In this document: positions 7,440-32,828 of the stretch, in pieces
How positions within the stretch are numbered: the stretch's first letter is position 1
Layout of the letters: the number at the start of each line of letters is the position of its first letter
Origin: Isoetes taiwanensis
Lineage: Eukaryota; Streptophyta; Lycopodiopsida; Isoetales; Isoetaceae
Assembly: GCA_021234155.1 (NCBI GenBank)
Contig: JAJEKV010000054.1
Coordinates: forward strand, 5,751,962 to 5,815,961
Direction: 5' to 3'
Length of the DNA: 64,000 nucleotides
Program-made: the position numbers and the translations under genes
The notes under the pieces: model-generated
The model's input: the letters and a program-made list of their open reading frames with translations, nothing else
The model's database searches: none
What the model was told of the DNA's origin: nothing

Positions 7440-7834
7440 CACAAACCATTATGTCCAACACTTTTGAATTAAAATCCCCCTAAAACGCCCTTTGGTTTAG
7501 GTGCATATTCACACGGGAGGTGATGTAGGGCAACGAAAGCCCCTTTTGTACTACCTAAAAACGAATAATACATGTACAAAATCAACACCATTTAGTACAT
7601 TGCCTCATAAACCTTATAGTATTTCGCAAGCCTCGTTATACAATATACCAAAACTTGTACAAGCACACCCCACAAACGAGGATTGCTATCTATGGTCTAG
7701 ATTCAGGAATAAGGGGCAAATATGCTCATCCAACAGCTCTCGATGCCCGGAGTCAACACCTCCGTGTGAGTATGCACCCAAACCAAAGGGGGTTGGGATT
7801 TTAAATTCAAAAGTGTTGGACGTAATGGTTTGTG
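7440..7834. mobile_element. MITE with ~80-bp terminal inverted repeats
   Basis: The left end, 7440-7522 (starting CACAAACCATTATGTCCAAC), is the inverted complement, with few mismatches, of the right end 7757-7834 (ending GTAATGGTTTGTG). The core is non-coding and about 235 bp. The tandem partner carries the same element at 29549-29945, so it predates the tandem duplication. A third, inverted and truncated copy lies at 11491-11740. I could not define a target-site duplication because degenerate TIR-like repeats continue to about 7890, so the superfamily is unassigned. Confidence 0.75.
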
Positions 7835-9565
7835 CTTTAGGGCGTTTTAGGGGTTTGTGTAATGGTTTGTGTTGGACGTAATGGTTTTAGGGGGAAGTTG
7901 CTGCAAAACTCTGCTGTATTTTCTTTGCAAATTATCGTATTTGTTGTACCTTGAACTCCTAAATACATTACCACTTGTTGCATTAATCTGCTCCAACATG
8001 AGCATCGCCTAATTTGCTGGTGCACAATCTCTATAAATGGGCAACAAGCTAAGGTTGTGGCCGCCTATAATGCACTTTTTTGACTTGTTAATATGCTACT
8101 TGTGGCAGAAATTATGAAACACATGAGGCAGTGGTAAGCACTCTTCTAAAATTGGAAAAAGATAGACACTCATGTAAACTTAATATACTAAAGGCTGCTG
8201 TCATTCATAGTATTTTGGACAACCTTTCCATATCTTTGTACCTTAAATGCAGAGCTGCTTAGAATTTTAACCATAACATTGTTAAGAGGTGCTACAACAA
8301 ATGCAAAAGTTGTTGAACCCCTCTTTGTTATCTTGATAAAAGCATAATTGAGCACATCAGGTCAACATAGTGCAATGCAAGTGCTTGTAAATATCGTAGA
8401 AAAGCATAGCACATTGCAAATGTCAATTTAACACCAAATAAGGCTATATAACCTCTTGTGGATACTTATGTAAAGTGCTATTTATTAATAAAGTGTTTGC
8501 TCTTTGAAAATGGCTAATAACTTTATATACTTGGGGTGGTAAAGCATTTTAGATGCAAATAAGAAGGGGTACTTTACATGTGCAAAAGGGAGGCTATTGA
8601 ATGGGTTATATTTAATTTAATAACAAACAAGAAAGCAGGTCACACCTTACAATTTTACTATATTTCATTTTGGAGTTATATTATACAAAAATAACATTAA
8701 GTAAGAGATTGTTTATTAATCCTAAGTTGTAAATTTACACAAGATCGCAAACACGAATTTGTTGGATGCAATTATTTTCATGCACGAAGATTTTACATCA
8801 TATGATCCTCTCTAAAAAAGGATGACTTTGGCATTCAAAGTTCTAAGTTTTATGAATGTTCCTTTTGCATATAAGAATGTCACATCCTATTTTTTCTTAG
8901 AAGATAATAGCTCGTTGATTAAATGGATAATAATTCAAAGAGTCCTCCTACCATTTGAATAGTTTCAAGATGTGTTTTTGCTATAATTTAAATAGTAAAT
9001 GATTTATCGATGGATCTATTGTGCAAAATGCCAAAGACTTCGTGCATTAGATGTATCTAAACACAAACACCCTAATTTTTGTACTTCATGATTGTATGCA
9101 TTCTTTGCATTGCAAGCATCTTTATGGACATTTCCTCTCCCTAAAGCGATGCTATTCCAGTGATCTCCAGCTCTTCAACACAATATATTTTTCTGTCATA
9201 GTTATTGACAATAACTGTTGCTTGATAGAACCATTTGGTCATATATTTAGGAGGGTTGGTGGCCGCTTTTCCTCCACCCCTTTGAGTGCATCTATGAAAA
9301 GCTATCTTGGCTGCTTATGAGATTTCTCCATTTCTTGTCCACTCCATATGGCTAAATTGTTTTATTTCTAGAAAAATCAAGTGCATGCGCCATAGGAGGT
9401 GTATGTGTTAGTATATGCATGTACTAAATGCATCTATATGAGCATTAATGATTTTGTTAGAGGCTTCCACAAACTTCTTTACGTGTTGTTCTTTGAGATA
9501 TATTCACTAAGTCCAATAGAGCATATCAAGTTTCTCTCTTTCTCAACAAGGAATGGAATCATCTT

Positions 9566-12955: not shown

Positions 12956-13021
12956 ATTGGAAACATAGATCTCAAATTTGATGTGAAAGTGATATAATAG
13001 TTGCAAGATTTAAATATAAAC

Positions 13022-13051
13022 TAGTAAACGTGTGCCCAGCGTTGCCGGGCT
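13022..13051 (-). other. Helitron 3' terminus: hairpin plus CTAG
   Basis: On the minus strand GCCCGGC-AAC-GCTGGGC (13051-13035) forms a 7-bp stem with one G.T wobble. It is followed by ACACGTTTA and the terminal CTAG at 13025-13022. A subterminal hairpin just before CTRR is the hallmark of Helitron 3' ends and is thought to act as the replication terminator. Confidence 0.85.
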
Positions 13052-13506
13052 AATGTCCTGGAATATGTTTTTACTCCACCTTTAATGTTCATATGCGCAA
13101 CTTCTTCATATGTCTTGCTATGTGTTTTTACTTGGCTTTCACCTCCACGTGTGCAACTTTTGACAACACTACATGTTGATGTTTGCAAGAGTAAGCATGA
13201 TTTGCTTTTCTAATTATTTTTGTTGCTGATTGAAGTTTTCTACTAAGAGTATCATCCACGTATTAACTTTGCACTTAAAGGATGGATTTTAGCAAAGAAA
13301 ACAATGCTGCATAAGAAGGTGGGGGGCGAATGTACCCTTCCTTTAAAGTGAAAATATGGGAAGACAGACCCAAAACCTATGCTCAAAATCTCATGCTTAG
13401 AAGTAAAGTAAATTATCGGTACAGATATGCAAAACATGAATATATAATAGGGTTTGTTGGTGTTCTTTTGTTCATGATAGATCTCTAAATATACATCTCC
13501 ACGTAG

Positions 13507-13985
13507 CAAGGTAGTTGAGTACTTAGAAATCCGTACCTTAAAAATCCGTATGCAAAGATTTTTTAAAGGTTTTTAAAAAAAATATAAAAATCCTTAGAAT
13601 ACAAATTTTATAGAAATTACAATATAGCCATTACAATATGAAATTCTAAACCTGTAAGCCTACAATTCTAACCCTAAACCTAAATTCTAAACCTGTAATC
13701 CTAAATTTTCAACATTCTAACCCTAAACCTAAGTGTACACAATGTAAGCCTAAACATTCTAACCCTAAATTTAAACATTCTAACCCTAGACCTAAACATT
13801 TTAAACCCTGTAAACCTTAATTCTAAACATTCAAACCTAAACCTAAATGCGCACAAACAAATTAGGGGCAAATTTTTTTATTTTATTTTATTTTTGCTAT
13901 CCCATTCCATAAAAATCTTTTAGAGTACGTACGGATTTTTATAGAAGATTTTTATGAATAAAAAACGGGTTTTTTAACCACCTTG
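13507..13985. mobile_element. hAT-type MITE with telomere-like core
   Basis: The left end CAAGGTAGTT and the inverted right end CAAGGTGGTT are flanked by an exact 8-bp direct repeat, CCACGTAG (13499-13506 and 13986-13993). An 8-bp target duplication and CA(A/G)GG-type ends fit the hAT superfamily. Subterminal inverted copies of AAAAATCCGTA lie at both ends. The 479-bp element has no coding capacity; its core is a CCCTAAA-like array. It lies inside the Helitron. Confidence 0.85.
13640..13855. repeat. Degenerate plant-telomere-like array
   Basis: Repeated variants of ATTCTAACCCTAAACCTAAA, AAACCTGTAA and AACATTCTAACCC occur across about 200 bases. The motif CCCTAAA is the plant telomere unit, but the spacing is irregular and units are interrupted, so this is an interstitial or internally amplified array within the MITE. 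Confidence 0.75.
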
Positions 13986-14116
13986 CCACGTAGCGCATAT
14001 CACCAGGGGCATAATGTCAATCTTTGCTTTTACTAAGAAGCATATATGTACTCCATTGTCCACTTACCTCTCTCGTAGCACATCCACATGAGGCTATAGC
14101 AGCTCTATAATTACTT

Positions 14117-15749
14117 GCAGATATAATATCCTAGTCTATTATGATCAGAAATGATCACAACACTCTGGATCATGTCCTGACACTTCGAACTCTGATAGAA
14201 AAGGCTAAAGCCCATAATGCATCGCTGTTTGTAGCATTCATAGATTTCACGAAAGCTTTTGATACCGTACCACGTAAGGAGCTTAGTGAAAGAATGATTC
14301 AAATTGGCGTCCCACAGAATATCAGAGAGGCGGTTTCACAGTTGTATGCAGAAGTATTGATCAAAGTCTCGTGGGACCTGGAAGCAGATATAAAAAGCAC
14401 AGTCGGGGTACGCCAAGGCTGCCCGTTATCTCCAACGCTATTTGGAATTTTCATAGATGAACTAGAAGATTGGTTGAAAGTCAGATCTCTTGCAGGCACA
14501 AAATTAGGTACATATGTGATTCAATTACTTCTTTATGCCGATGATGTGGTATTGCTAGCAAATCACAAGAAAGTGCTACAAGACCATTTATGCAGTTTGG
14601 AGCAGTTTTGTGAATCAAAGAGAATGAGTGTAAACTTATCCAAATCCAAGATCATGGTATTCGGCACAAGGGACAGACCTGAGTTCACATACAAAGGCCA
14701 AACATCGAGGATGTTGATAGTTACAAATACCTAGAAATTGATATAGCATCAAATTACAATTTGAAAAAGCGTGTGAAACGGAGATCATCGGGGAGGCAAG
14801 GTCGCCTCAGATAAAGATCTTTGGCGAGATCTTCGCAGGCATCACTCACAGATTGGGGGCTGAAAAGAATCTTATTTAAGACTCTAGTTCAAATGGTTCT
14901 GTTATATGGTGTACCTATCTGGGGACCCGAACTTTCCAACAGATTATGGAAAGAGCTAGAAGCAGTTCAGAAAATGTTTTTAAAAGAGGAGCTTGGTATC
15001 AGATCCCAAATCCCCTATGCCATCATGCTGGCGGAAGTAGGTATGTTTCTTCTAGAACTTGAAGGCCTATACCAATCTGTTAATTTCTACAATCGAGTTA
15101 TGGCACAGAATCCAAACCGTCTGTCACATCGCGCTATGATGGCATCAGATCAGGGTTGGAAGAAAAATTTGATGCAATGGGCAAACAAATGGGGCTTGAA
15201 TAATCCAAATTGGCCTGCAGATAAAGAGGAAGCACGGTTTTTGCTAGAAAAGCTGGAAATGGACAAATTATGGGCTGAACCAGGAAAAAGGATGTTGCAG
15301 TATCGGGCCAGCATTAACCATATGGATGTATATACATGTCAAAACTATTTAAATGCATCTATACCAAAAGGAGGCAGTTGATTGCGAGATACCGAACAGG
15401 ATCCCATAAGCTCGAAGTAGAAATAGGGAGATGGGCAAGAACACCACCAGAAGACAGACTTTGTAAGATATGTAATTCAGGGGACGTTGAGGATGAACAA
15501 CATGTATTCCTGCAATGTTCAGAATATGGGCACATTAAACGCAGTTTTGGTGTTCAGACAACAGATTTATATTCATTATGGTTGATGCCACCATCATGTT
15601 TAGGGCTTTTCAGAAGGACGGTGGATGCACATCGATCCTTTTTACTCAAACTGTAAACAAGATGTTCATGTGCTCCATGGCCTCTCGAGGCATTAGATAT
15701 AAATTAAAATTAAAATTAAATTAAAATTATTATGTTCTGCAGATATAAT
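14117..15749 (+). mobile_element. LINE-C insertion with 11-bp target duplication
   Basis: The direct repeat GCAGATATAAT at 14117-14127 and 15739-15749 flanks a 5'-truncated LINE. Its 3' end carries a (TAAAAT)n-like tail at about 15690-15730. The zinc motif spacing matches LINE-B, so the two families are related, but the protein and tail sequences differ. Confidence 0.85.
14128..15656 (+). pseudogene. LINE-C reverse transcriptase and zinc-motif region, frameshifted
   Basis: The first frame (14141-14734) holds reverse transcriptase motifs in order: FIDFTKAFDTVPR, GVRQGCPLSPTLFGIFIDEL and LLLYADDVVLLA with the catalytic YADD. The reading then shifts: 14821-15381 carries the post-palm region (QMVLLYGVPIWGPEL) and 15336-15656 carries the zinc motif CX2CX9HX4C (RLCKICNSGDVEDEQHVFLQC). 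At least two frameshifts and a short scrambled stretch (14735-14820) separate them. No endonuclease is present. It is a dead, 5'-truncated copy. Confidence 0.9.
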
Positions 15750-16234
15750 GTGCATTTTATTATGTTCTATAATGGTCGGCATTGCAGCGTGTAAGTAGAG
15801 GTTATGTTTATAAGGGTGTGTAGATTTGCTAAAATTGTTGTCTCTTCTAGATTCATCCCTATTATGTTCAAATTTAATAGCATTGTACTTTGGGGTTATG
15901 ATGTAGACGTTCGGCCAATTACATGTTTGTTAAGAACAATGTATTGTGTTGGGTATAGACGTTGGAACAATTACACGTATTAGATTGGGCTCATGGCTTT
16001 GAAGTTTCACTAATTACGTGTTCTTTCATTATGCAAAAGTATAATGAGCTTGTAATAGATTGGGAAGTTGTGCTATAAGAAGGCACTCTACATGGTCTTG
16101 AAGGCACTCTCCATAACCTGGAACTTGGCTTACATAAGCCATGCTAGTAACCCTTTGATCGCGGTTGGATGAACATCCAAAACAAACATGAATAAGCAAC
16201 ATCAACTTACATAACCATCTCATAATTGCTTCTG

Positions 16235-16235
<1 letters not shown>
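15750..16235. other. AT-rich Helitron DNA, nothing recognised
   Basis: About 490 bp between the LINE-C copy and the first (CA)n tract. I see no coding potential or repeat other than short AT-rich words. Confidence 0.5.

Positions 16236-16269
<34 letters not shown>
16236..16269. repeat. (CA)n microsatellite, left edge of duplication
   Basis: About 16 CA units, directly followed by AATTTCACTTATTCTCTC, which recurs after the next CA tract. Confidence 0.95.
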
Positions 16270-16273
<4 letters not shown>

Positions 16274-19200
16274 TTCACTTATTCTCTCTTTCTTTCTCTC
16301 TACTAGAGTCCTGCTTTGCCAAATGCTTCAGCAATGGCAAAATGGCTTGAATTTAGCCTTTAATTCCTATGCAAAGTGGCTAAAAACTATACTGATGACT
16401 GGTTGACTGTTTTTTTCTTTAGTACCTTTCTAATTTTATTTTCCTCTGCTAAGTGGCTGGATCTTGTACTGGAGTCTCTTTGGATTTATTTTCCTTTAGT
16501 TCCTTTGTGGTTTTATTTATTTGTCTTGTACCACCATTGTGGGCTTCCACATATCTTCTTTGCTAGTCTAGTAGTTTTCTTAGGACTTCCTAAGCTAAGT
16601 GGCTAATGGTAAATATGATACTTGTTTGCTGTTTTTGCTGTATTACCTTGGTGTTTTTTTATTGTGTATCCCACCCTTCGGGGCTTCCAATTTTTTCAGT
16701 GCTGGGTCGTCCCCTTTCTAGGGCCTTTTTTACTCTTTGGTTATTTGGCAATTTTTTGACCTCCGGTTGTTAGGATTCCTTTTTATGAATTTGTCTTGTT
16801 CGTGTAACCTAATTTATCATTTGCCTTAGTGGTTTTTTGTTTGTTATTTTCCGTTAGTAGTGCTGTGCCTTTATTGCCCTTTCCCGCTTGCCTAGTCATC
16901 CGGACTTCTTGAAATTCTGGAGTTGGCGTCCACTTCTTTCACAAGTTTCGGCACTTCATACAGTCTTCCGCTTGTTTCTTGCAATCTACCTTCTTCAACG
17001 TTGCCTTCTCTTTCTCTCGGGCTTTCTTCTAAGGTATTTCATGCGGGTCTGTTTTTGTCATTTGCTTAGCTATTTGTTTCTGTATATGCTTCTGATATTG
17101 CATTTCAATCTTTTCTGGTGCTTCTGCAATTCTATTGTCTGATTGATGCTGATGTCTTTAACTCTTTCCTCTCTGGTTTCACTTTAATTTGTTGAATTTC
17201 TTCCTCCCTTTACCTTTCTTGGGCTAATTGCTAACAATTTGCCTATTGTGCTTGTTTCTTTGCCAAGATGTGGCGTGCTGGATATGTTTTTCCCCGCTTT
17301 ATTTGTTCTTTTTCCAGCCTATACATGCTGCAGTTAGCTTATCCTGTGCCATTTTTGTCCTATGGCAATTAGCCTCTTTGATTTGCCCTTATGACCAGCT
17401 TGTGCCAATTTAATTTGTGCCTAGTTGTCTAAGTGCTTTTTGCTTAAAAAAATTTTTCTGTCTTGCTTATGCTTGTCCTTCGTTTGCTTGTTGCATTTTT
17501 CTGTAACTTTTCCTTTTTGGTTTCACTTCATTTTCTTGGTTTTCTTCCTCCCTTTACCTATCTTGAGCTTTTTGTTAACAATTTGCCTGTGTGCTGCTTC
17601 TTCATCTGCCAGTTGTGGCATGCTGGCTCTTGCATTTATTTCCCTTGTTATATTTGTTCTTTTTCCTGCATTTAGCTTCTGCGTTTGGCTTCTCCTGTGC
17701 CTTTTGTGTCTAAAGGCATTTTGCTTCTTTGAATTGCCCGTCTGCCTAGCACGTGCCCTTTTAATTTGTGCATTGTTTAACTTGTTCTTTATTTCCTGCC
17801 TTTGCTATTGTAGTAGGCTTCTCATATGCCTAGTTTTCTAATGGCTCTTTCCTTCTATGTTTTGCCTTTCTATTTTTTATTATTTGCTATTGTTGCATTG
17901 ACCTTTTCTCCCTTGCTGGTATTTATATTTTCTGTAATTTATCCCTTACTGCTTTTGCTATCCTCGTCTAGTATGCTACTTTCTCCTTTTTTACTCTATG
18001 TTTGTATTTCTCTTTGCTTTATGCTCTTCTTGTACCTTTCATTTCTAAAGGCATTTTATATTTAATTATCTAGGCTTTTCAGAGCAACGTCATTCTGATG
18101 TTGCCTTCTGAAATATCTGTCTGCTTCTGCAATTCTTTTGCTTGCTTGCTGCTTATTTCTTATCTCCTTCCTATGTGGTTTCTCTTTAGCATATTAATTT
18201 CCCTCCCTTTTCCTTTCTTGGACCTTTTGTTAACTTTTTACCTTTGTTGTGCTAGTTCTTGTACCAGTTTTGGCGTGCTGACTGTGGTTTATATTTCCCG
18301 TGCTTAGTTTCATCTCTATTTCCTGCTTTTAGCTGCTGTAGTAGTCTTCTCTTGCATTTATTGTCTTATGGCTTCTTGCTTGTTTGATTTGCCCTTTTAC
18401 CTAGCTTTTGCCATTGTATTTTCTGTTGTGTCTGGTTTGATCTTTCTTCCTGCCTATAGCTAATGAAGTAGGCATATCCTGTACCTTTATTTGTAATGGC
18501 ATCTCCTGTAGACTGTTTTGCCTTTGTTGCATTCACTTTCCATGCTGGATTTTTTTTCTGTAAGCTGGTTTTTTGAAGGAACAAAGTATATAATTTAGCA
18601 GGTGCGGATATTATGTCTGGTAGTGGACCATTTGATCAGTAGTTTTAGGTTTTGTTTTTCCTTGCTTCTTAGAACAGTGATGGCTAATTCCAGACTGGTC
18701 CCTTAATTTATTTTTTACATTTACCCTTTGCCCTTGTGCTTTGGGTAGTATATCTCTTGTTTCTGAAGTTGGCCTCTTATGGTGTGAGTTTTTTCCTATT
18801 CTGTCCTTTGTTTGTATTTTTCATTGCTTTGTTGCTCCTCTTGTGGCTTTATTATTTTTCTAAAGGCTAGTTGTGCTCCTCTGTTTTATGTTAAGTTCAT
18901 GACATTTAATTTCCTGAAATGCATCTCCTTTGCCACTTAACTGATATTAGCAGTTACCTTGTGGATACACACAAGACTGCTATACATAGCAGTAAGGAAT
19001 TTTATTTGAAGGAATTTACCCTAGTGATTTGAACACTAATTTTGCTAGTAGAGATGAAAATTCTTTAAGAGATCTATTGCTAAAATGTATGTCTTTTTAA
19101 GAATATATGATGTTATCATTCTTAAAGTTTCATGCTTAGATCTATATTTTAGCTTTGACATGGATAACAACTGGGTGGTGGCTATGACACCTGCAGTTCC

Positions 19201-22200
19201 CAGGTCTAGTTACTATTACTATACTAACTTAAGCTCCTGGATGGTCTGAGGTACCACGCCTCTACCCTTGAGCAAAAATGTAGATGCTTACATTGAAATT
19301 TTTAGGATGTGCTGAGATCCTTCCTATGAACTTCCTGAGATTTACCATGCTAGATGTTTTTTTATTCCAGAAAATAAATTCCTGTTTTCAGACAGTTGGG
19401 AAAAAATCTTTTTATATTATATTATATCATGTGAATTCATGTAATTTATGCATCCCAATGAGGTGTGTCTGTTCAGTGATCAATTTATGAATTTAAGTGG
19501 CTTCTTTGTCTTATGATATGACCTGTTCTTTACACACACACACACACAAAATTTCACTTGTCCTCTCTTTCTTTCTCTCTACTAGAATCCTGCTTTGCCA
19601 AATGCTTCAGCAATGGCAAAATAGCTTGAATTTATCCTTTAATTCCTATGCTAAGTGGCTAGAAGCTATACTAATGTCTGGTTGACTGTTATTTCCTTTA
19701 GTACCCTTTTAATTAATTTTATTTTTTATCCCACCCTTGGGGCTTCCATAGGTTAATGATATCCTATCTTGGGCTGATTTTCCTTTATGGTTATTTATCC
19801 TTTACCATTTTCCTCTGGGTGGAGGTATATCTGAGGTTTTTTGGATGGTGTTCCCTTTTACCCTTGTATTTCTCCTTCCCATGCTAAGCTTATTTTTGGT
19901 TTTGTTTATGGGTGGTTGATAGCCCTTCTCGGAAATTTTTTTTCTATATGGTTGATTGTCTTTGGCTCTCAACCTTTAGTTTGTTAGGATTTAGTTTTGT
20001 AAGTTTGTCCTTTTCGTTTTAACCTAATCTATCATTTAGTTTAGTGGTGTAGTGGTTCCGGATCTCACTTCTGTTAATCATGCCTGGCATTTATTGCCCT
20101 CTCCCGCGTTTCTACTCTTCCTATTTCTTGAATTATTCATTCGCCCCTGCTGTCGTCCATCTCGTTCAAAAGTTCCAGCCCCGTTTACTTGCCTTTGCTG
20201 GTGTCCTGCATTTCCTCTTCTTCAACGTTTCCTTCTACCTTTCTCAGGCTATCTCCTAAGGTATTTCTTGTGATTCATGTTTTCGGTTTATGCTTAAGTA
20301 GTTTCAATTGCCTTTCTTCTGTTTTTGCTCTCCAATTTGTTTATTTGCTGCTGTTCTCCTTTGTTTTTTCTGTATTTTCCTCTCTGGGTTCACTGTAAAT
20401 TGTTGGTTTTCATCTTCCCTGTGCCCTTTGCTTGAGTTTTTTGTTAACATTTTGCATATGTTGTGCTTGATCCTTTGCCAGTGGTGTCAAGCTGACTTTG
20501 GCATTTATTTCCTTTGCTAATTTTGTTGTTTGTCCTGCCCTTTGCTGCTACAGTAAGTTTTCCAATTTATCTGCCAGCTTCTGCAGTCTAATATATGGCT
20601 TGTTTCTTTCTTCCCTACTCTAATCGTTCCTCTGGCAGTTGTGGCTTGCTGACCTTTGCTTCCCTTGCTATTTTTGATTTTTTCCTGCCTTTAACTGCTG
20701 TAGGAGGCATCTTCTGTGCCTTAAATTTCTAAAGGCATTTTGCTTCCTTGATTTGCCTTTTGCTGGTGCTGACCTCCTCTGATATGTTTCGTTTGTGCAC
20801 TTCTTGTGCCTTTCTTTTATTGTCTAAAGGCCTTTATGTTCTAGTTGTCTAAGCTGTTTTGAGCAACGTCATTCCTTTGTTGCTTGTTGTATCTTCTTTC
20901 TGCTTGTGCTTTTTCTTTGCATGCTTGCTGCTTTTTTCTGTCCTGCTTCATATCTGTTTTCTCTGATCAGATTTAACGGGCTGGCAGTGGTTCCCCTTTC
21001 CCTTGTTAATCTTATTTCCTACCTCTAGCTGCTGTTGTAAATTTCTCCAGTGCCTTTGTGGTCTTTTGACAAGTTTCTTGTTTAATTTGCCTTTCGGCCT
21101 TGGTTCTGCCATGGTATTTGTGGCAATGCTAGATCTGACCCTTGCTCCAGCCTGTTGCTATTGATATAGGCTTCTCCTTTATTTTCTTTAAACTCTTTGA
21201 TTCTATGGTTTGCCCTACTACCTTTGTTAATTTCTTTGCTGTACATGCTTGGACCTTACTGGTTCTGCTAACCTTCTCTGATTTATTTCTTTCTCCTTTA
21301 TTGCTACTTGTTTGTCTTCTTCTATGGCTTACTGCAATTCTTGTGCCTTTAATTTGTAAAGGCTTTTCAGATTTATTATTTAAGTTGTTTTGAGCAACGT
21401 GTGTGCTCTTGTTGCTAGTAATATCGTATGTCTTCTTCTCCAGAACAGTTCATTTTTTGTAGTTTTCTTTTGTATGCCGTTAAGTCCTAATTGTCTAAGT
21501 TGTTTTGAGCAACGTCATCCCTTTGTTGCTTGCTGCTTCTTCTTTCTGTTTCTGCTTTTAATATGCATGCTTGTTGCTGTTTTCTGTTCTGCCTCACTTG
21601 TGTTTTCTTTAATCATGTTAATTTCCTAGAGTTGATGTGCCTTTCTGCCCAGATTATGCCAGTGTATTTTATGCAGTACATTTGCTTTGCCACTTTACTG
21701 ACAGTAGCAGTTACCTTGTGGATACACACAAGACTGCGATATATGAATACAAATAGTAATGAATATTCTATGATGGACTGTACCTAGCGAATTGAATACT
21801 ATGCTAGGACAGCTAGTAGAGATGAAAATATTTTAAGAGAGTTATGGTTGGAAAGTATGTTTCTTAAGAATTTATGCTGCTATCATTCTTAAAGTTTCAT
21901 GCTTAGATCTATGTTTTAGCTTTGACATGGATAACAACTGGGTGGTGGCTATGACACCTGCAGTTCCCAGGTCTAGTTACTATTTTTATACTAACTTAAG
22001 CTCCTGGATGGTCTGCAGGTACCACGCCTCTACCCTTGAGCAAAAATGTAGATGCTTGCATTGAAATTGTTAGGATGTGGTGAGATCCTTCTTATGAACT
22101 TCCTGAAATATTACCATGCTAGATGTTGTATTGATTCCAGAAAATAAATTCCTGTTTTCAGACAGTTGGGTAAATCTTTTATATTATATATCATGTGAAC

Positions 22201-22290
22201 TCATGTAATTTATGCATCCCAATGAGGTGTTCATGTTCCGTGATCAATTTATGAATTTAAGTGGCTTCTTTGTCATATGATATGAAATCT

Positions 22291-22291
<1 letters not shown>
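16270..22291. repeat. Tandem duplication of a pyrimidine-rich segment
   Basis: Copy 1 is about 16270-19531 and copy 2 about 19549-22291. The left ends match (TTCACTT..TCTCTCTTTCTTTCTC, then GCTTTGCCAAATGCTTCAGC). The right ends match over about 350 bp (TTTTAGCTTTGACATGGATA, GGTACCACGCCTCTACCC, AATGAGGTGT). The middle parts are more diverged but share the same T-rich texture and words such as GAGCAACGTCATTC. The plus strand is strongly T/C-rich, which produces many short open frames that I do not regard as genes. The nature of the segment is unknown; it could be intronic DNA or non-coding RNA captured by the Helitron. Confidence 0.8.
19532..19548. repeat. (CA)n microsatellite between duplicate copies
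   Basis: A short CA tract at the junction of the two copies, in the same relative position as the tract at 16236. Confidence 0.9.

Positions 22292-22346
<55 letters not shown>
22292..22346. repeat. (CA)n microsatellite, right edge of duplication
   Basis: About 27 CA units, followed by a short (GACGAC)-like stretch to 22375. It corresponds to the junction tract at 19532, so copy 2 ends at a CA tract as copy 1 does. Confidence 0.95.
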
Positions 22347-22347
<1 letters not shown>

Positions 22348-22375
22348 GACGACGCACGACGACGACGCACACGCA

Positions 22376-24030
22376 CACATTTTTGAGATACAACCAATTC
22401 AAAAATACCAAAGAGCTGCTAATTCTAAAATTTCTTATCCTTCATAAAACCATAATTGTCATTTCAGGAGCAGTAGTTATTGTTCAAGGCTTTCTATCGC
22501 AAGACATAGCTTGCAAAGTTAAGAAAATAAATGATTTCATATGGCACATGTTCTCTACCTTTGAATCAATTTCATTTAATCTTCAACAAATATCACATTC
22601 TCGTCTAATATGTCAGCAGATGATAATCCATTTGTTGTCAATATCGTTGGACACAAAATAAACTATACTTTCTAATTTCCTGCAAACCTGCTCCTAATAA
22701 TTTCTTTTCACGTGGCATGATAATGGCTACTATGGCCGGCCAACTGCTTTTAACTGGCAAGAAGTGGAGAACCTTGGGACCTTCGATCATGCATCATCCA
22801 AAATTGCTCTGGCAGCAGAGCTTGACTACCAACGCATTACACATACGACGAATGGACTGGAACATCAGAATAAAATGTCAAGCAATCTAAGAATGTGATT
22901 GCAATGATAGAGATGGACATCAAAACACTAATAGAATATGATAGGTCACAAGTCACTATATGGGATTTACATTCCTCTTGTATGCAACTAATTGATCCCA
23001 TCCTTATGACTGGCAGAAAAACAACCATGAAACCATGATCAATACATGCTGCTAGTTGAAATATATATTTAGAGAACAATTGCTGCATAGAAAATGGAAC
23101 TGTCATTACAAATGCTAAAAGAGTAAATGTGAAACCCTGAAGAATGCACAAAGATAAAAGGCAAAAAAAGTTGTAGGACCCGTAGAAATGTTGGACTGAC
23201 CAAATGTATGGTGCATCATAACAATTCAAGCAGGGCCTTTTATTAATCAATAGCAATTTGACCTGCTTGTTCTTGTAGTCATATAGCAGCTATAAGCTGC
23301 CAAATTATTATGCTAGAGGAATGGGAAAGCAATGATAATAGCAAGTCTAACGTTAAGTGAGAATATTACTGCTGCACATAATAAGCTTGTAAATAATGCC
23401 ATCAATTCAGAATCAACATGTTCATATGGCTTATTGAAGCATCAGGATAAAGGTACATAGTAGAAGGAAAAAGGAAGCATAACCTATGCCCTGTAATAGA
23501 AACGACGTTCTATCTTATAAATTTGTCCATCAAATTGGCGTCATACCTTAGTTAAACTCTTTTTGGAGAAGAGTAATGCCCCTGAACAATGCCAACTTTA
23601 GAAAATGGTCCAAATCCTAGCTGCAAAGGAACTTTGGCAATATTAGGACATTGTATTGCAATACATATTTTGCAAGAAGACACAAATGCTTTTAACAAAT
23701 TACTGGAAAACAGTAGACTGCAAAATAAGCTTACTTATAATGCCTGAGACAATTTTAGAGGAAAGCCAAGATGTATACGCCATGAAAACTGTATAAATAG
23801 ACATGACTTTGAGACTATACTATAGAGTACAATCTGCAATCTAGAAACTTGAAAGAACACCTCTAAACATTAATAAAAGTAAACCTTCGGGGAAATGTGG
23901 AGTCAAAATTCTAAAATCTGCACTTATGGGCAAACATGGAACATGCTGTGACCTTCCTTTTGCTGCAAGCTCACTTCCTTCTTACTACTGCAAGCTATCG
24001 TGATGGCCAAAAAATGCCGAAAATCAGCCC
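22376..24030. other. Helitron DNA without recognised gene
   Basis: About 1.65 kb of moderately AT-rich sequence. Open frames are short (up to 139 codons) and resemble no family I know. On the minus strand it lies downstream of the candidate exons, so it may include introns or the 3' flank of the captured gene. Confidence 0.45.
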
Positions 24031-24039
24031 CTGAACCAT

Positions 24040-26278
24040 TTAAAAAACAATGCCTGGATAATCATATCTTGGTGAAACCTTCAAACGCTCATAACCTGCT
24101 CTGGAAGGATCCACCTGCAGAAAGAAAAAGAAGAAAAGAAATGGTCAAGCAGGAAAATATGGGAAAAGGAAACCCATCGAGCATCAAATTTGAGCACAGG
24201 AGCTACCTGGTTTTGGACAGGGCAGGTGCAGCTAATGCATTACGTTAAATGCATCATGCAAGAAGGTCCTTCATAAGGAAACATCCTCCAAAAACCTGCT
24301 CCGTAATCTGAGAAACAGGCGAACGAAAATAACCCAAAACATTATATCATCTTTAAGAAAATAATATAACAAATTCGTAAATCTTGAGCTCTAACCATTG
24401 GGCAGAGAATAAATTCTACCTAAATGAGTCATTCAGACAATGTAACCATTCGAGAATAGCAAATTTTAGCACATGCCACTTTGGTGCAAGATTGAACAAT
24501 ACAAAGCAATCAAAATACAATGGCAAATCATGAAAAAGAGCTTACAGAGAAGGGGGACAGCTGCCCTGCACCAGCGAAGTGTTTGGCAGACAATGGCACC
24601 AACCCATTTCTAATCTTTGAAAAAGTGGAATGCTAGTCGAGGAAAATCCTCCCAGATTGTGGAAGTTTTCCATAAGAAGTTTGTTGTGCATGTAAAACTG
24701 CTAGATCAGATCTGCAAAGACATAACTGTGTCTGTGCTAGGCCAAGGTATATTTGCAAAAGCAGACCTGGCAACAGACCTGGCATTTGCATGCAACTCTA
24801 TCTAGCAGACCAACACAGCTGCAAATTGATCAAGTACATGCAACACAACTGTAAACTAAAGCTTAACAAAGGTACAAAATATGTAAGCTATATAATGCAT
24901 GGAAAAAACATGGCACGTATATTTTGAAAGACCTAGTTTTGAACTCCCATTTCTACACACAAATCCTCTTGTAAAATGCATTCATCCAAGCATTATGTAA
25001 CAAATGGCAAAAAGTTCAAACAATTGCCACCTGTATGCTTCAAATAGAGAAGATATATCTATTGTTGTCATCGTGTTAGTGCTGTGTATTTCGTTTGCCT
25101 CCATAGATCAGCCACTTAGTCAAGCCATGTTAGAATTATGGATTTCGGGCATAGACGATTGAGGATTGAGGGAATATGAACATGAAGTTTATGTAGCTAG
25201 CAAAACTTGATTGAGATGTCTTCTGGTAGCTTGATTGTAGATGCAAGTGCAGCTGCATGTCAAGGCTAGAACTAAATATCACCTGCAAAAGCCTGAACCA
25301 AATGACAGATCAAGTAATTTACCTGCAAACTCACTACTTTCTTGCTCTTGCACAACATTAAAAAGCTCCCAAATCCGCAAACACAAATAGAACTTTTTTG
25401 CTTGCATTTGCCACAAACACAAAGCCATTTCAGCAGGTGATATGGACCCATATTTGATCCCGAGCAGCTCAAACCTTACATGTACAAAAATGCAGAGTAA
25501 TAGGACACTGTGCAAGGAAACAAAACGTAATGCATTTGGGCAGACCTTATTAGCACCAAACAATCAGGTTGAAAACCAAAGGAGATGGTACAACAAAAAA
25601 AAAAAGGGAATATGAGAATCTACCTAAGACCAGGACCAATTTGCTGCCTTGAATAAGCCGATTTTACTCCTCTGATAAGCCCATTTTTGCTCTCATCGAA
25701 ATGAAAAAGATACAGAGACAGCTCAGAGCCAGAAATCAAGTCACCACTTGCTACAGACGGCTTCCATCTCTATCGTGAATTGAATCTGCATAAACTGAGA
25801 CCAAAGCCAACACAAACTAAGCACATATTGCATTTTGTACAGGCAAAGAAGCACTGAAGTACATACACCAGTGAAAAACCGTCTGGAAAACCAAAAATAT
25901 CATGAAAAATAGGAAGAGAAGGAAACAGAAGAATAGAATAGAATAGAATAGATTTTTTAACGTCCACGGAGACCAATAGGTCATGGGACCCATACAATGG
26001 GCTAGTACAATCATTACTACTAGGATTAAAAAGCTAGGTTCTACCTGTGATGGTGCTGGATGAAGCTCTGGTGCTGTCGCTCTGCCGCAGACGAGAACGT
26101 CACGTAACAGGGAGCGGCCGTTATGTCTGAGAGGAGCAAAAATGTATGAAACGTAAAGAGCGAGAAATATTGCCGAAATTTTTTTCCCTATTTTCGTATG
26201 ATTAGATGGGAAGGGGGAAAGATAGCCGGAAAGAAAAAATTTGGTCGAAAAACCCATTTTTTTCTTCCAAAAGTCCAC
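24040..26278 (-). pseudogene. Candidate host-gene exons captured by the Helitron, function unrecognised
   Basis: Two minus-strand blocks have splice-like ends and matching phase. One is 25769-25624 (48 codons, 2 bases over; VASGDLISGSELSLYLFHFD to QQIGPGLR, then AG|GTAGAT). The other is 25474-25323 (FELLGIKYGSISPAEMALCL to EQESSEFA, then GCAG|GTAAAT). A strong acceptor (long pyrimidine run, CTGCAG|GTG) starts a last block at 24114-24040 ending YDYPGIVF and TAA. A GC-richer block with donor CACAG|GTAGAA near 26036 may be a first exon. The exons run in the Helitron's orientation, as usual for captured fragments. I do not recognise the protein and cannot tell whether the gene is complete. A LINE-B tail sits in the first intron. 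Confidence 0.45.
25930..26033 (-). mobile_element. LINE-B 3' end fragment with (TAGAA)n tail
   Basis: About 100 bp: the tail (AATAG repeats), then on the minus strand the terminal block GGTCTCCGTGGACG and TGGGTCCCATGACC up to CTAGTAGTAATG. It is nearly identical to 4650-4738 and is truncated just inside the hairpin region. Confidence 0.9.
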
Positions 26279-26380
26279 TTTCTTCCAAAGGAAAATTTTA
26301 GATGCCGGATTTTAATTTTCTGATCACAAAATTTCGCTTTTTCGCCGGATTTCAGTGTCTACAGGCGGCCGGAAAAAAGA

Positions 26381-26416
26381 GGACACACCCCCACAAAAAC
26401 ATTTTAAGTAAGTAGA
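26381..26416 (-). other. Helitron 5' terminus
   Basis: TCTACTTACTTAAAATG starts at 26416 on the minus strand. TC is the invariant Helitron 5' dinucleotide, and TCT(A/C)TACTA-like AT-rich starts are usual in plants. A G-rich stretch (GTGGGGGTGTGTCC) follows. Confidence 0.8.
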
Positions 26417-27721
26417 TATCCATGGACCATTAATGGTCAATACTTAGACTTGTCAAAATTTGAATCATTTAATCAAGGTAACACTCTTTTTCAACTCATA
26501 TATGATAATATATGTGCATAAAGGTTCTTGATGTCATATATTGCAAAAAACACAAAGAAACCTTCTTTTCTCTTGCTATCATAAACTTATTACTGTGTTT
26601 GCTGCCAGAAGTATTGTAGGTTAAGTATGATAATAGTGCATGTAGATCATCTTTCATGATGAGCTATATTTTTTTTATGGATGCAAGCCTTCTTTGGTAA
26701 TATAGATCTCTAATTTCATGTTCAAATAATTATTGGTCCACAAAAGACAGAAAACAGTTTTGACCTTGTCATGTTTGATGAAACCCATCTTCCTTCTCAT
26801 ACCTTGGAATGAGGTGCAGTTTTTTTTGTTGTACTCTCTAACTCGCGTAGAAAAATAAGAAAATACTGAAAAAAAAAAAAATTATTTAATTAAGACAGTT
26901 TTACCTTATGTAAATATAAAGCAGTTTTACCTTATGTAAATATAAGGCAGTCTTGGCATGACCCACTTCACCTAAGTATAACTTCCAAGAATGGAGATTG
27001 ATAGATTTTTAGATATTTTTTATACGGAACATGACTGCCATATATGAACTTCTAGGAAAGGTTTTATTGAATTTTGAGCCATTGATTTTATATGAATTTT
27101 AAAGTGAACAGTGCAAATGCACCATTTTTGGTCAATCGCGTGACAACTCTAGTGTTGCAAGCAACAGCTAGCAGAACATACAACCGTCATGCCAAACAAG
27201 TACAACTAGTTCTATTATGACTTACTGAATTGCTTGAAGCGATGTCTTATTCATGTCTGTGTTCTGGGCTTGGCAGTCTGTTTAAGATTTAGATGCAGTT
27301 GCAATAGTCTTAAAAAGACATTTGTATGTGAGAATCTACTGGTCTTTGCAAATGCCTTTTAAGACGAGCAATAAGCGTTCACTAACAAGTCTCTTTATCT
27401 TCATGCTTTAACAACTATTTTTGACCGTCTTCAAGCAATCAGATATCTGAGAGCCAGGATAATGTCAGAACAGAAGAATTGAGAAAAGTTGCTCCATTGC
27501 TTGAGACAAATTGAGAACAAGGAGACCCGATTATGATTGCATGAATGTATTTGCTTACATGAGGCTAATTCCATTCTTTTGATTTGTTATGGTGTCGAAG
27601 TATCTTTGGTTCTAGCCCCCATGTTTTTGCATCATTATGCTAGATATTTCATTTGTTATGTCTGGACTTCTGCTTGGGTTTTTAACTTTACATGTTCACT
27701 CATTATACATAGCAGTGTCAT

Positions 27722-29163
27722 AAAGGAAGGAAGGAAGGAAGGTTCTTTTATCGTCCACGGAGGCCAATTGGCCTATGGGACCCAAATTACAGGGGTCCAG
27801 CAAGCCCGTTGCTACCCGGATTAAAAGACCCCCCTTAAGAGGGAAAAACCGTCGCAGCAACAAGCCTGCTGGCAGCTGTACACATATACATATACACATG
27901 AATTCCCGGCACCTCAGGTAGGCGCCTGGGGGCAGAGGTGAGTCCGCAGATCCAAAACCTCTTGGAGGTAGGAGCCAAGGGATCGAACTAACGGGCAAGA
28001 CCGAGTAGCTTCGTCGGTGAGGGGCGAACTGTGTCGCACCAAGAGAATGTAGCGAGCCGAATCGACTATAGGCCGGGCGGACTCACGGAAGGCATGGCTT
28101 TCATCCTCAACAACCCCCAGTGGACAACACTGACAAAGCCTGTCCTGGCGCAGCCCTCCAACCCACCGACCCATCTCAAGCCGAAGATGGTGGGCCCCTG
28201 TTCGAATGGACACGATGATCCTGCGCTTCTTCATGGGCAACTGAGAACGCAGGTAGAGCTGTGGGCCTCGAACCGTGGTGGGGTTTATGTGTTTGTTTGT
28301 AGTGTGCCACCTTTACCTGTTCGAAGCATGGTGGTCTCGAGCTTCCCGTGAAACAAGAGTCCAAATACCCCCTCGGCCTATCCCTACCGGCTGCGTAGTG
28401 CACACTGGGACGCACCTATGTCGCGTCTATATTCCCAAGCGCCCCATCGGGCCCTCTTGTCCTTCCAACAAGCCCCGAGTCGTTGCGGGCTCATCGCCGG
28501 CGCCAGAAGCCAAGTGGGAGCCGAAGTGTCGCCCATGCCGGCCACCTTCCGAAATAAACAATGTGTCTATCGAGGGTCGCGATGCATCGCGGGGCATGAA
28601 TCACGTCTCCTCGCAACAAGATCTCGATATGGGCGAGGGCTTGACCCCAAGTGCCGCGTCAAAAATGCCTTCGGACTGCTCTAAGTCGTTTCCAAGTCGC
28701 CAAAGACACCACTTGGGCCCCACACCTCGACCCCATACGTAAGAACTGGCTCCACCGGTTCGGAACAAATGTTTGGTGGCCCCAGTCTTTACTACCGCCC
28801 TATGACTATTGTTTTGCATTGTGTACAGCGCTTTCCAACCTGCGGTCACCCGAAGGCGAATGGATGCATCCCAATACATTGAGAACGGAAATTCCACCCC
28901 CAGGTACTTGTAGCTGGGTGTGACCTCTACCATCTGCCCCTGATAAGTGAGCGCCGGAGGTGCTGGATGACGTAAGGAGGATATGAGGACCACCTTAGTC
29001 TTGGCCAGGTTGACACACATGTCCGACGCCTGGCAGAATGTGCCCAGGGCATCTAGGTGTGCCTGCATGCCCTCTGGTGTATGGGCCAAAAGGTCCACAT
29101 CATCCACATAGATGAGCTGCCGGATGACCTGGTGCAAGAGCTGTATACCGTCCCCCCCATTGA
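27722..29163 (-). mobile_element. LINE-B insertion with (CCTT)n tail
   Basis: On the minus strand it runs from reverse transcriptase sequence to the 3' UTR block GGCCTCCGTGGACG and a (CCTT)n tail at 27722-27742. The uninterrupted site is in unit 1 near 7027-7040 (CATAAGGGAAAATC). It is 5'-truncated just upstream of the YVDD motif. Confidence 0.88.
27914..29163 (-). pseudogene. LINE-B ORF2 fragment: YVDD to zinc motif, frameshifted
   Basis: The upstream part (29163-28601) holds the reverse transcriptase C motif (RQLIYVDDVDLLAHTPEG), the thumb-like region (CVNLAKTKVVL; YKYLGVEFPF) and the start of the post-palm domain. The frame then breaks. The downstream part (28240-27914) carries the arginine-rich stretch RRIIVSIRTGAHHLR and the zinc motif, RLCQCCPLGVVEDESHAF. 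The expected final cysteine is altered (RESARP where related copies have SCPAF). Multiple indels make it non-functional. The stretch between the parts (28241-28600) is a degraded remainder of the same domain. Confidence 0.85.
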
Positions 29164-29548
29164 AAATCGGTGTTTTATACATGGATTGTGCAATATATTC
29201 AAGCTACATTCAAAATGTCCAAGGACATGCATTGGCATTTTAGGATCAAGAATGATCTTAACATAAAGCAATATAAATGAGATTACTTAGTGCAAATGTT
29301 GTGTATGTGAGATGGAAAAAAAGTATTGTTGCCTCAATGTCACATACATGCATTGAATGGGATCGTTGCAAAATGATTTTTTTTTTCCCTTTGTGTCCTT
29401 AACATTTTTTATGGCCCTGAAGGGGCCAAATATTCTTATCCACAATACAAACCCCCTACATCTTCTCAAAGTCCCCATACAGATGTACATAACATCACTA
29501 CACAATTCCCAAGGCCCTGAAGGTGCCATTTTTTTTTTTTTAAATTAA

Positions 29549-29945
29549 CACAAACCATTATGTCCAACACTTTTGAATTAAAATCCCCCTAAAACCCCCT
29601 TTGGTTTAGGTGCATATTCACACGGGAGGTGATGTAGGGCAACGAGAGCCCCTTTTGTACTACCTAAAAACGTATAATATATGTACAAAATCAACACCAT
29701 TTAGTACATTGCCTCAAACCTTAATAGTATTTCGCAAGCCTCGTTATACAGTATACCAAAACTTGTACAAACACACCCCACAAACGAGGATTGCTATCTA
29801 TGGTCTAGATTGAGGAATAAGGGGCAAATATGCTCATCCAACAACTCTCGATGCTCGGAGTCAACCCCCCGTGTGAGTATGCACCCAAACCAAAGGGGGT
29901 TTTAGGGGGATTTTAATTCAAAAGTGTTGGACGTAATGGTTTGTG
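29549..29945. mobile_element. MITE with ~80-bp TIRs (second tandem copy)
   Basis: Counterpart in unit 2 of the element at 7440-7834, with the same ends (CACAAACCATTATGTCCAAC ... GTAATGGTTTGTG) and similar length. Just outside its right end, the word GTAATGGTTTGT is further repeated to about 30003. Confidence 0.75.
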
Positions 29946-30103
29946 TTTTAGGATAGGGGTTTGTGTAATGGTTTGTGGTAATGGTTTGTGTAATGGTTTG
30001 TGTTGGACGTAATGGTTTTAGGGGGAAGTTGCTGCAAAACTCTGCTGTATTTTCTTTGCAAATTATCGTATTTGTTGTACCTTGAACTCCTAAATACATT
30101 ACC

Positions 30104-30726
30104 AAAAGAGAGGAGCAGAAAGGAGCAGGCCGCCTCAGTATCTTCTGTTACCAGAAGCCTGAACTTGCGTATTATAGGAATTGCAGAGGCAGAAGATGAT
30201 GCCCATTCTCATGTGGATGCGGCTTTGCATTTTTTCACTGATGTCATGCATGTGAAGGTTGGTAGAGTTGTCTCCGCTACTAGGGTGGGAGCGGCAAGAC
30301 CTGATCGTCCTCGCCATCTTTTGGTTCAATTTCAAGACACTCTTAGTCGCTTACATATTCTTCAGCATGGCAACCATATCAGAGGGACTAGTTTCTCAGT
30401 ACAAGAGGACCTCTCCCCTCTTCAGTTGTGTAACCGTAAAGAGGAGCTCTGCAAGGTGAGGGCAGCCTGCCTGCAAAAGAAATGGGCAGTGTACAAGGGA
30501 GGCGCAACAATTATTCTAGATCAATGGCCTTCCAATCCTTGGACTTTCTATGTCTAGAGAATTTTAGAAGCACAAAATTACCGCTAGCATTAGCATTATC
30601 TTCTTCTTGGTAGTCTTTTAATATTTGGTTCTTGTGTTTGGTGACGGGGCCTAGTCCCCAGGTTTTAGATGGGTTGTTGCCCTTGCATGTGCCGTCAAAC
30701 CCGTTGGGTTCCTTATCTTATCTGTA
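30104..30726 (+). mobile_element. Insert carrying a LINE ORF1-like fragment
   Basis: Unit 1 reads AAATACATTACCACTTGTTG into TTAATCTGCTCC near 7970-7990. Here about 620 bp separates these flanks. The insert is GC-richer than its surroundings and contains an open frame from about 30105 to 30557. No tail or clear target duplication was found, so its mode of insertion is unknown. Confidence 0.65.
30105..30557 (+). pseudogene. LINE ORF1-like protein fragment (RRM/CTD type)
   Basis: About 150 codons containing LNLRIIGIAEAEDDAHSHVD, a hydrophobic/basic stretch RPDRPRHLLVQFQDTLSR, and TSFSVQEDLSPLQLCNRKEE, followed by KKWAVYKGGATIILD. The order 'RNLRIxGI', 'RPRxLLVxF', 'xxxDLsPxqxxxRkxL' resembles the RNA-binding ORF1 proteins (transposase-22 type) of L1/Tx1-like LINEs. 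Both ends lack the expected coiled coil and the rest of the protein. Assignment is by motif resemblance only. Confidence 0.6.
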
Positions 30727-31667
30727 TTAATCTGCTCCAACATTGAGCATAGCCTAATTTGCTGGTGCACAATCTCTATATAACTTTTATTGATATGGAT
30801 AATGGGCAACAAGCTAAGGTTGTGGCTGCCTATAATGCACTTTTTTGACTTGTTAATATGCTATTTGTGGCAGAAATTATGGAATGCATGAGGCAGTGGT
30901 AAGCACTCTTCTAAAATTGGAAAAAGATAGACACTCGTGTAAACTTAATATAGTAAAGGCTGCTGTCATTCATAGTATTTTGGACAACCTTTCCGTATCT
31001 TTGAACCTTAAATGCAGAGCTGCTTAGAATTTTAACCATAACATTGTTAAGAGGTGCTACAGCAAATGCAAAAGTTGTTGAACCCCTCTTTCTTATCTTG
31101 ATAAAAGCATAATTGAGCACATCATGTCAACATAGTGCAATGAAGTGCTTGTAAATATATTAGAAAAGCATAGCACATTGCAAATGTCAATTTAACACCA
31201 AATAAGGCTATAGAACCTCTTGTGGATACTTATGTAAAGTGCTATTTATTGATAAAGTGTTTGCTCTTTGAAAAGGGCTAATAACTATATGTACTTGGGG
31301 TGGTAAAGCATTTTAGATGCAAATAAGAAGGGGTACTTGTGTTTAATTATAATTTGACAACAAATAAGAAAGTAGACCACACCATGCAAATTCACTGTGT
31401 TCTAATTTCTTTGCATATGTGTTATTCCCTTGATACGATCCTTCTTAAAAAAAAGTATGCTCTTTGAAAAGGGCTAATAACTTTATGTACTTGGGGTGGT
31501 AAAGCATTTAAGATACAAATAGGAAGCAGTATATATGTGTAATTTCAATTTGACGAAAGAAAACGGATCACACCATGCAAATTTAATGTATTTCCATTTT
31601 TTTTGTTTTTTTTTCATATATATTATCCACCCAATGTGACCCTTCTTCAAAAAGATAGCTTTCAAGT

Positions 31668-32828
31668 AAAGAATAAGAATAAGAATAAGAATAGATTTTT
31701 AGCGTCCACGGAGACCAATTGGCCTATGGGACCCAAAGCAAAAAGAGAGCAGCAAGCCTATTACTGACAGGATTAAAAAACCCCCGCCCCGAAGGGTTTT
31801 CGAGGGAAAAACCTTAGCAGTAATAAGTATGCTGGAATGCCCCAACAAACCCACTGACGCTGTAGTCAATAACTGATGCAACGGCTGGCCAGGCACTAGT
31901 AATCGAGCATATCGCTCTCGGATATGAGCAAATGCTGGGCAGATCTGGAGGACATGACATTCATCCTCAATAGCACCCTGGTGGCAACACTGGCAAACCC
32001 TTTGCTCCCGTGCTTCCCGAGCCCAATGTCATGTTTCAATGCGGAGGCGATGTGCACCCGTGCGAATGGAAGCTATAAGTCTGGCGCTTCTTCATGGGTA
32101 CCGGGTGTACAAATGCTTGGTGTGGGCCTCTCGTGAGCCTAGGATTGACTTGTGCTGGCGATAGTGTGCCCCGACTTAACATGCGTCGAGCATCGCATCC
32201 CCAGAGCTTGCGAAGGAAAGTAGCATCTAGGTACGACTTAAGTGCCCTGCGATCTTTCTTTTCCCGACACGGGCGCTGCTTGTTCGCGACACCCCCCGCG
32301 GAGAACCACCGAGCTTGCTTGTCTTTCCGCCAGGATTTCAGCGTTGAGGACCCATCGCGGGTGGCCAAAGCAAAGGTTGGGCAAAGCGTGTATCAGCCAT
32401 AGCGACCACCTTCTGGAAGTAAACGATATGGCGTTCCAATGCAGCCCGTTGAAGGGGCAGAAAGCCTGTCTCCTGAAGTAGGATCTGGTATGGAACTGTG
32501 GACTTCACCCCAAGGGCCTGTGCCAAGAAGGCCTTCTGCACCTGCTCAAGATCATTCCAGGTGCTAAGGGATATCACCGGACCCCACACTTCTGCCCCAT
32601 ACAAAAGGGCCGGCTCGACCAAGGCCCGAAACAGGTGTGACTGGTGGCCCCAGGCATACAACTCTGCCTTGTGGCTGTTGTTCTGCATGGCGTATAGTGC
32701 CTTCCAACCTGCCGTGACCCGCAACCCGATGGCAGCATCCCAATGGGTGGTAGTTGAGAACTCGATCCCCAAGTACTTGTAGGTCGGAGCCACCTTAACC
32801 TCCTGTCCCTGGTAAGTGAATGAGGGAA
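31668..32828 (-). mobile_element. LINE-B insertion with (AAGAAT)n tail
   Basis: On the minus strand the copy runs from FTYQGQ (post-palm) to the 3' UTR. It has the conserved block TTGGTCTCCGTGGACG, the hairpin stretch (31770-31815) and a hexameter tail (31668-31698). The corresponding part of unit 1 lacks it. Confidence 0.87.
32036..32828 (-). pseudogene. LINE-B ORF2 C-terminal fragment, frameshifted
   Basis: The first frame (from about 32828 down to 32338) reads YKYLGIEFSTTTHWDAAIGL through QVQKAFLAQALGVKS to PAMGPQR. Translation then shifts to another frame (32368-32036: LKSYLDATFLRKLWGCDA ... PVPMKKRQTYSFHSHG). The zinc-motif region (about 32040-31930) is further degraded. This copy keeps the glutamine codon that is a stop in the copy at 9571-10473. 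Non-functional. Confidence 0.85.

Follow-up and report, generated by a model that had tools for sequence, protein, structure and literature searches.

Canonical plant Helitrons begin with TC, end with a hairpin followed by CTAG, insert between A and T without duplicating their target, have partners that encode a RepHel protein and carry chimeric cargo, for the capture of which read-through and filler-DNA models have been put forward. Their arrangement in head-to-tail junctions and tandem arrays is reportedly treated in a work by Xiong et al. from 2016. Such junctions and arrays have been described in plant and bat genomes (PMC5876387). For the lycophyte Isoetes taiwanensis, the published assembly comprises 1658.30 Mb in 204 scaffolds and 909 contigs, and the main text of the genome paper makes no mention of the term Helitron (PMC8566536). 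Here we describe an insertion in a 64-kb stretch of this genome (G000:C1061:5751962-5815961, referred to as the window), which occupies positions 13021-26416 on the minus strand and which we confirmed to be a genuine rolling-circle transposon with a precisely located insertion site. With a probability of about 0.93, we interpret this 13,396-bp insertion as a non-autonomous canonical Helitron with a body of about 5.3 kb that holds about 8 kb of nested DNA and resides between A and T of a host repeat with copies dispersed in the genome. It belongs to a large family and represents a typical non-autonomous plant Helitron, as such of a known kind. It differs from canonical plant Helitrons in that nested DNA makes up most of this copy, and its unusual properties are the amount of unrelated DNA that it holds and the way in which a T-rich part of this DNA is bounded.

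The genome used for our searches consists of 1.658 Gb in 1,110 contigs. Pattern counts (the classes of 833, 101, 78, 419 and 182 occurrences described below) cover it completely, and searches with DNA queries or protein families scored the best candidates (40 of 1,156 for the 3' end, 40 of 512 for the 5' end, 150 of 1,813 for the replication protein and 40 of 241 for the T-rich block), the resulting numbers thus being lower bounds.

Termini and empty site of the Helitron

On the minus strand, the element follows an A with the sequence TCTACTTACTTAAAATG (its first letters also being given as TCTACTTACTTAAA) and terminates in GCCCGGCAACGCTGGGC, ACACGTTTA and CTAG, after which the host continues with T. 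The 5' terminus, of which about 113-125 bp are conserved, is found at 26303-26416, and the 3' terminus, with its 7-bp hairpin, 9 nucleotides and CTAG ending at position 13021, at 13021-13050. As DNA, the hairpin folds into a 7-bp stem with a loop of 3 nucleotides at –6.4 kcal/mol (z –2.06), which by itself is weak evidence because 5 of 200 shuffled controls are equally stable. The organization of the termini, the location between A and T and the absence of a target duplication agree with the original prediction, which had been made from the letters of the window. In this prediction, the element was placed at 13022-26416, with a correct right boundary and a left boundary that is off by one base.

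The boundaries are defined by an unbroken copy of the host site at 5550-5720, which forms part of a tandem repeat in the same window and covers the region 5560-5660 that had been proposed for this comparison. After joining the left host flank (12960-13020, ending with TTTAAATATAAA) and the right host flank (26417-26520, starting with TATCCATGG) by script, the product aligns to this copy, all on the plus strand, with neither a gap nor an extra base at the junction. Homology thus breaks exactly at the edges of the insertion, and the predicted restoration of the sequence near 5600-5620 upon removal of the element is confirmed. The single exact empty site also rules out that the two ends would originate from different elements. 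The unbroken copy near 5600 belongs to a rearranged tandem duplication, in which 5601-9563 can be aligned collinearly to 26403-33963 in segments of 85-95% identity, with the second copy holding extra DNA.

In the entire genome, 78 empty host sites were identified with up to three mismatches (reversed control 0), of which 28, counted from the listing, match the joined site GATTTAAATATAAATATCCATGGACCATTAATGG letter by letter. These 78 include the copy in the window itself, at 5599, which differs from the joined site by two letters. Such a number of unbroken copies identifies the host as a dispersed repeat, and the internal empty site, although real, is for the same reason less rare than had been claimed. 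Near-identical 3' junctions containing TTTATATTTAAA were found at 101 places with up to three mismatches, and six of them were inspected. Five, on contigs C1064 (twice), C1055, C1066 and C257, were rejected as insertions into the same host site, as none aligns to the host sequence at 5401-5760 over more than 19 bp. The sixth, at C1091:1553705 (L047), carries another 3' end of the family between TTTAAATATAAA and T of the host repeat, to which its flank can be aligned over 551 bp at 87.8% identity. Beyond about 200 bp, the interior of this element is unlike that of the window element and partly resembles an element on contig C907 described below. Its 5' end was not found within 12.7 kb at up to two substitutions, so that the proof of an insertion at the same site is limited to its 3' side. 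In a family of about 10^3 copies in 1.66 Gb, this second hit at a single base of a repeat that numbers about 80 copies would suggest a local target preference.

The Helitron family and its arrays

A genome search with the terminal bases, which had been put forward as a check, retrieved many other copies at both ends. For the 3' side, 38 of the 40 scored matches to a 179-base query begin at its first base, as do all 40 matches for the 5' side, with the own copy included in both cases. Of either set, 20 matches were fetched for reading. The fetched 5' ends all start with TCTACTT(A/G)CTTAAA, preceded by A in 17 cases and by the G of a preceding CTAG in three. At the 3' end, CTAG is found in 18 of 20 sequences, with L003 and L013 being degenerate, and T is the next base in 19. 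Two of these ends, on contigs C941 and C1073, have a common flank and may represent one event. The 21-base family form of the 3' terminus, GCCGGGCACACGTTTACTAGT, occurs 833 times without mismatch (control 0), and the terminus in the window, which contains CTGGGC in place of CCGGGC and is thus one letter off, is outside this count.

RepHel proteins are encoded by other members of the family. At least 150 matches to Helitron_like_N were scored in the genome, and one element of 13,441 bp at C1018:33456295-33469735, which has the same two termini, contains a single stop-to-stop RepHel frame of 1,979 amino acids with the domains Helitron_like_N (E 1.5e-57), PIF1 (E 2.8e-78) and Pif1_2B. No second frame of 150 or more amino acids, and hence no RPA-like frame of such size, is present in this partner, which distinguishes it from canonical plant Helitrons. 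Its RepHel frame opens with three repeats at a spacing of 453 bp that are 83-90% identical (positions 7022-8370 of the joined loci L067 and L068). Another element with the same termini, 9,959 bp in length (C907:2680949-2690907), shows RepHel homology across several frames. When using the C1018 RepHel frame as tblastn query, no match below E 0.99 was obtained in the window element, which bears out the predicted absence of a Rep/helicase from its cargo. The window copy is therefore non-autonomous, a status that is compatible with a canonical Helitron family. A search of the window against Rfam gave no matches.

Many members of the family are found in arrays. Among the 833 exact 3' ends, 182 (22%, control 0), located on many contigs, run straight into TCTACTT, the start of another 5' end, and the junction of GTTTACTAG with TCTACTTACTTAAA occurs 419 times at up to two mismatches (control 0). 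On contig C317 (50586-63215), two adjoining 4.2-kb units are 95% identical, and such near-identical neighbours would be as expected for rolling-circle multimers. The element on contig C1042, which serves as reference below, is located directly after another Helitron 3' end. As in the arrays described for plants and bats, 3' CTAG is joined to 5' TC with nothing in between, and in difference to these, the junctions are spread over many contigs (PMC5876387). A 32-bp miniature with little beyond 5' and 3' Helitron ends is located between two elements at C1101:285228-285259 (L061).

Nested DNA and the size of the Helitron body

The original prediction regarded the insertion as one large Helitron of 13.4 kb. 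Its length is correct but its body is smaller, as becomes evident in a comparison with four sister copies, of which those on contigs C624, C1036 and C1049 align with the window element between its 3' end and a position of about 16.0 kb, and the one on C1042 is complete. The C1042 sister (C1042:13272237-13276128) encompasses 3,892 bp with both ends and shares 1.95 kb of cargo at 95.6% identity. For the C1036 element, no 5' end was found within 14.7 kb at up to two substitutions.

Close to the 3' end of the window element, an 8-bp duplication, CCACGTAG, at 13499-13506 and 13986-13993 encloses 479 bp (13507-13985) with the short inverted ends CAAGGTAGTT and AACCACCTTG. These features define a miniature inverted-repeat transposable element (MITE), which we take to be hAT-like from the length of the duplication and the sequence of the ends. 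The MITE is absent from C624, C1036 and C1049, and C1042, where the whole surrounding region (13152-14078) is missing, is uninformative in this respect. Further inside, a non-long-terminal-repeat (non-LTR) retrotransposon, a long interspersed nuclear element (LINE), is found on the plus strand at 14144-15727. It is truncated at its 5' end, carries a remnant of a reverse transcriptase (RVT_1, E 4.5e-31) and an (AAATTA)n tail, and is bordered by the duplicated sequence TATTATG at 14137-14143 and 15728-15734. In a Pfam search of nine open reading frames of the window, only RVT_1 and a sub-threshold zf-RVT match, both from this LINE, were obtained at E <0.001. The LINE is missing in all four sisters, and in C1049 its place is taken by a different sequence of about 90 bp. 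The targets of MITE and LINE are both single-copy in C624 and C1036, and the two segments are therefore insertions.

The largest nested segment is a T-rich block that is bounded by (CA)n tracts. It starts with (CA)17 at 16236-16269, followed by unit a (16270-19531, 3,262 bp, T 46%, A 18%, without long open reading frame), (CA)8 at 19532-19547, unit b (19548-22292, 2,745 bp), which is a rearranged relative of unit a, and (CA)27 at 22293-22346. Both units are T-rich on the plus strand, with 44-46% T and 18% A. In place of the region 16236-22346, C1042 contains one (CA)n tract, this sister thus lacking both LINE and T-rich block in addition to the stretch 22645-23086. Subtraction of the MITE (about 0.48 kb), the LINE (about 1.58 kb) and the T-rich block (about 6.0 kb) from the Helitron leaves 5,310 bp. 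Since the MITE is lacking in three sisters, the LINE in four and the T-rich block in the one sister that covers it, the 13.4 kb are composite.

Besides the conserved ends, the remaining body is chimeric and draws on two or more sources of DNA, two of which join at about 24632/24633 and are both assigned to the minus strand. Segment 1 (24633-25931) is common to other places in the genome, some of which adjoin Helitron ends (C1087, C1074 and C996). Segment 2 (22741-24632) has relatives on C445, C963 and C941 (80-81% identity) and, for part of its length, on C1060 (93%), and is mostly contained in C1042. On C996, pieces of both segments are located side by side. In the stretches fetched around the segment 2 relatives on C445, C963 and C1060, no Helitron ends were detected except for a weak one at C445. 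Neither segment 1 nor segment 2 yielded an identifiable gene.

Origin of the T-rich block and interpretation of the locus

The T-rich block was rejected as coding sequence, as stops are found in every frame (89-132 per 2,007 codons) and the longest frame contains 138 amino acids. A 3.27-kb unit on contig C1100, which resides between (CA)14 and (CA)85, matches unit a over its length at 92.5% identity. We have read the ends of such units at selected loci, excluding the left ends on C985, C1089 and C1076, which lay outside the sequence read, and C1035, which shows no unit end in the fetched stretch. From 17 right ends examined, C1019 and C1058 were dropped as they show no match to the end motif, leaving 15, with the two rows of C1089 counted once. 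The end corresponding to position 16270 adjoins (CA)6 or more in all 19 copies where it was read. The opposite end, in the 15 copies with end motif, meets (CA)n in nine, one common sequence in five and CACT-rich DNA in one (C1039). Followed further on C1056, C1069 and in the second C1100 copy, this common sequence runs into a reading frame that opens with MARNEA, for which two scanned pieces gave no Pfam match. Comparison of 17 left flanks identifies five that are alike (C1007 twice, C1039, C1075 and C1100). The remaining 12, including the one of the window, show no match at E 0.001, with C1052 and the second C1075 copy being mainly simple repeat of little information and C941 and the second C1100 copy being short. 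Of 15 right flanks, five are alike (the first C1007 copy, C1028, C1056, C1069 and the second C1100 copy), those of C1036 and C1039 have 120 bp in common at 76% identity, and eight, all following (CA)5 or more, match none. Both common flanks are present in the first C1007 copy, which has no long (CA)n on its right and would be the best candidate for a native arrangement. From these flanks, we read the T-rich DNA as probably derived from a native repeated locus, from which it has spread with (CA)n as its breakpoints. Exchange between tracts, circles or a (CA)n-targeting retroposon may have been the route.

Among these routes, we tentatively consider, at less than even odds, a transfer in which segments of about 3.3 kb that are bounded by (CA)n, and which once were located beside repeated gene-like sequence, would pass between (CA)n tracts, perhaps as circles formed and opened again at (CA)n, and in which two such segments would have entered the (CA)n tract of the Helitron in head-to-tail order. 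We have seen no direct precedent for Helitron cargo bounded by (CA)n in the consulted listings of open-access literature on Helitron capture, lycophyte Helitrons and circles. The comparison of flanks slightly strengthens this reading and weakens the alternative of a non-coding retroposon targeting (CA)n, with a fixed 3' end (...AGTGAAATTTTGTGTG on the minus strand) and truncation at the other, which would have inserted twice into the (CA)n of the Helitron. The latter, which we regard as unlikely, would account for the (CA)6 or more at the fixed end of 19 out of 19 copies and for a truncated copy on C1036 that meets (CA)n also on its truncated side. However, the first C1007 copy, whose left flank is common to four and whose right flank to four other copies, looks native and lacks a long (CA)n on the right, the breaks at (CA)n affect either side of the units or both, no reverse transcriptase was seen (with no long frame in the window block), and the ends examined carry no poly(A)-like tail. 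Waldo is a microsatellite-specific non-LTR retrotransposon, and the T-rich units resemble it by their location in a simple repeat and by one fixed end, but they are non-coding and have an apparent native locus, and we do not claim their membership. It is similarly improbable that the block is old in the subfamily and was lost from C1042 by recombination between (CA)n tracts. Gain and loss would alike leave the single tract of C1042, but the block has dispersed relatives of its own, and at the two loci read across, C1100 and C1036, the homology ends with (CA)n, without extending into Helitron sequence.

For the insertion as a whole, we observe the termini, the empty site, sisters without the inserts and RepHel elements with the same ends. 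From the original prediction, the identity of the element, its orientation, its insertion between A and T, the empty site and the lack of a Rep/helicase are retained, and the left boundary, the 13.4-kb body and the rarity of the empty site are not. That the boundaries would be a coincidence of AT-rich sequence is hardly conceivable and already refuted: the target is indeed AT-rich and low in information, but 833 exact 3' termini compared to none in the control, 20 of 20 fetched 5' ends and exact empty sites contradict it. A single 13.4-kb Helitron that has captured its whole interior including the T-rich block and moved as a unit would be in line with one clean insertion with precise ends, with the chimeric segments 1 and 2 that are partly common to other Helitrons and with the similar length of about 13.4 kb of the RepHel sister. 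We find this unlikely, as the single-copy targets in C624 and C1036 identify MITE and LINE as insertions and no other Helitron with a T-rich block was recognized among the best 40 of 241 candidates, few of which were read. Several observations weigh against the composite Helitron that we favor. Information on the T-rich block comes from C1042 alone, since the alignments of C624, C1036 and C1049 end at 16.01-16.07 kb, short of the (CA)n tract, and the described loss from this sister would mimic a gain in the window. About 0.8 kb in the 5' part of C1042 are unlike the window element. Outside the LINE, none of the nine open reading frames of the window has a Pfam match at E ≤0.01 that would point to a gene origin of the cargo. 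Finally, we did not find another full-length copy of the 13.4-kb element, which may thus never have moved as one unit. In the composite Helitron, a RepHel protein from sisters sharing its termini would have acted in trans to move the element between A and T of one host repeat, and the MITE, the truncated LINE and the two T-rich units in a (CA)n tract would have been added independently of one another, either before the element reached this site or afterwards.

Outside the Helitron, the window contains two 2.5-kb stretches (57275-59711 and 61322-63772) that are 92% identical, the first with a DUF7869 frame at 57875-58687 that may represent a transposon gene in duplicate. On the minus strand, a 1,290-amino-acid open frame at 138-4007 resembles a Copia-type polyprotein and large frames at 35997-41582 an L1-like LINE, both labels being assigned by eye, in the case of the former without family search.

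The coexistence of exact bounds, sisters, RepHel-encoding partners and dozens of empty sites within a single genome makes the stepwise growth of a Helitron readable, and it cautions that an apparently large, cargo-bearing Helitron can be a small one enlarged by nested DNA. The units bounded by (CA)n and the 22% of 3' ends in head-to-tail junctions make the gain of long inserts by Helitrons and the formation of arrays testable. The cargo bounded by (CA)n is the least ordinary part of the element. If its proposed transfer between tracts were true, simple repeats would be docking sites that provide Helitrons with large cargo, unlike capture by read-through or filler DNA.

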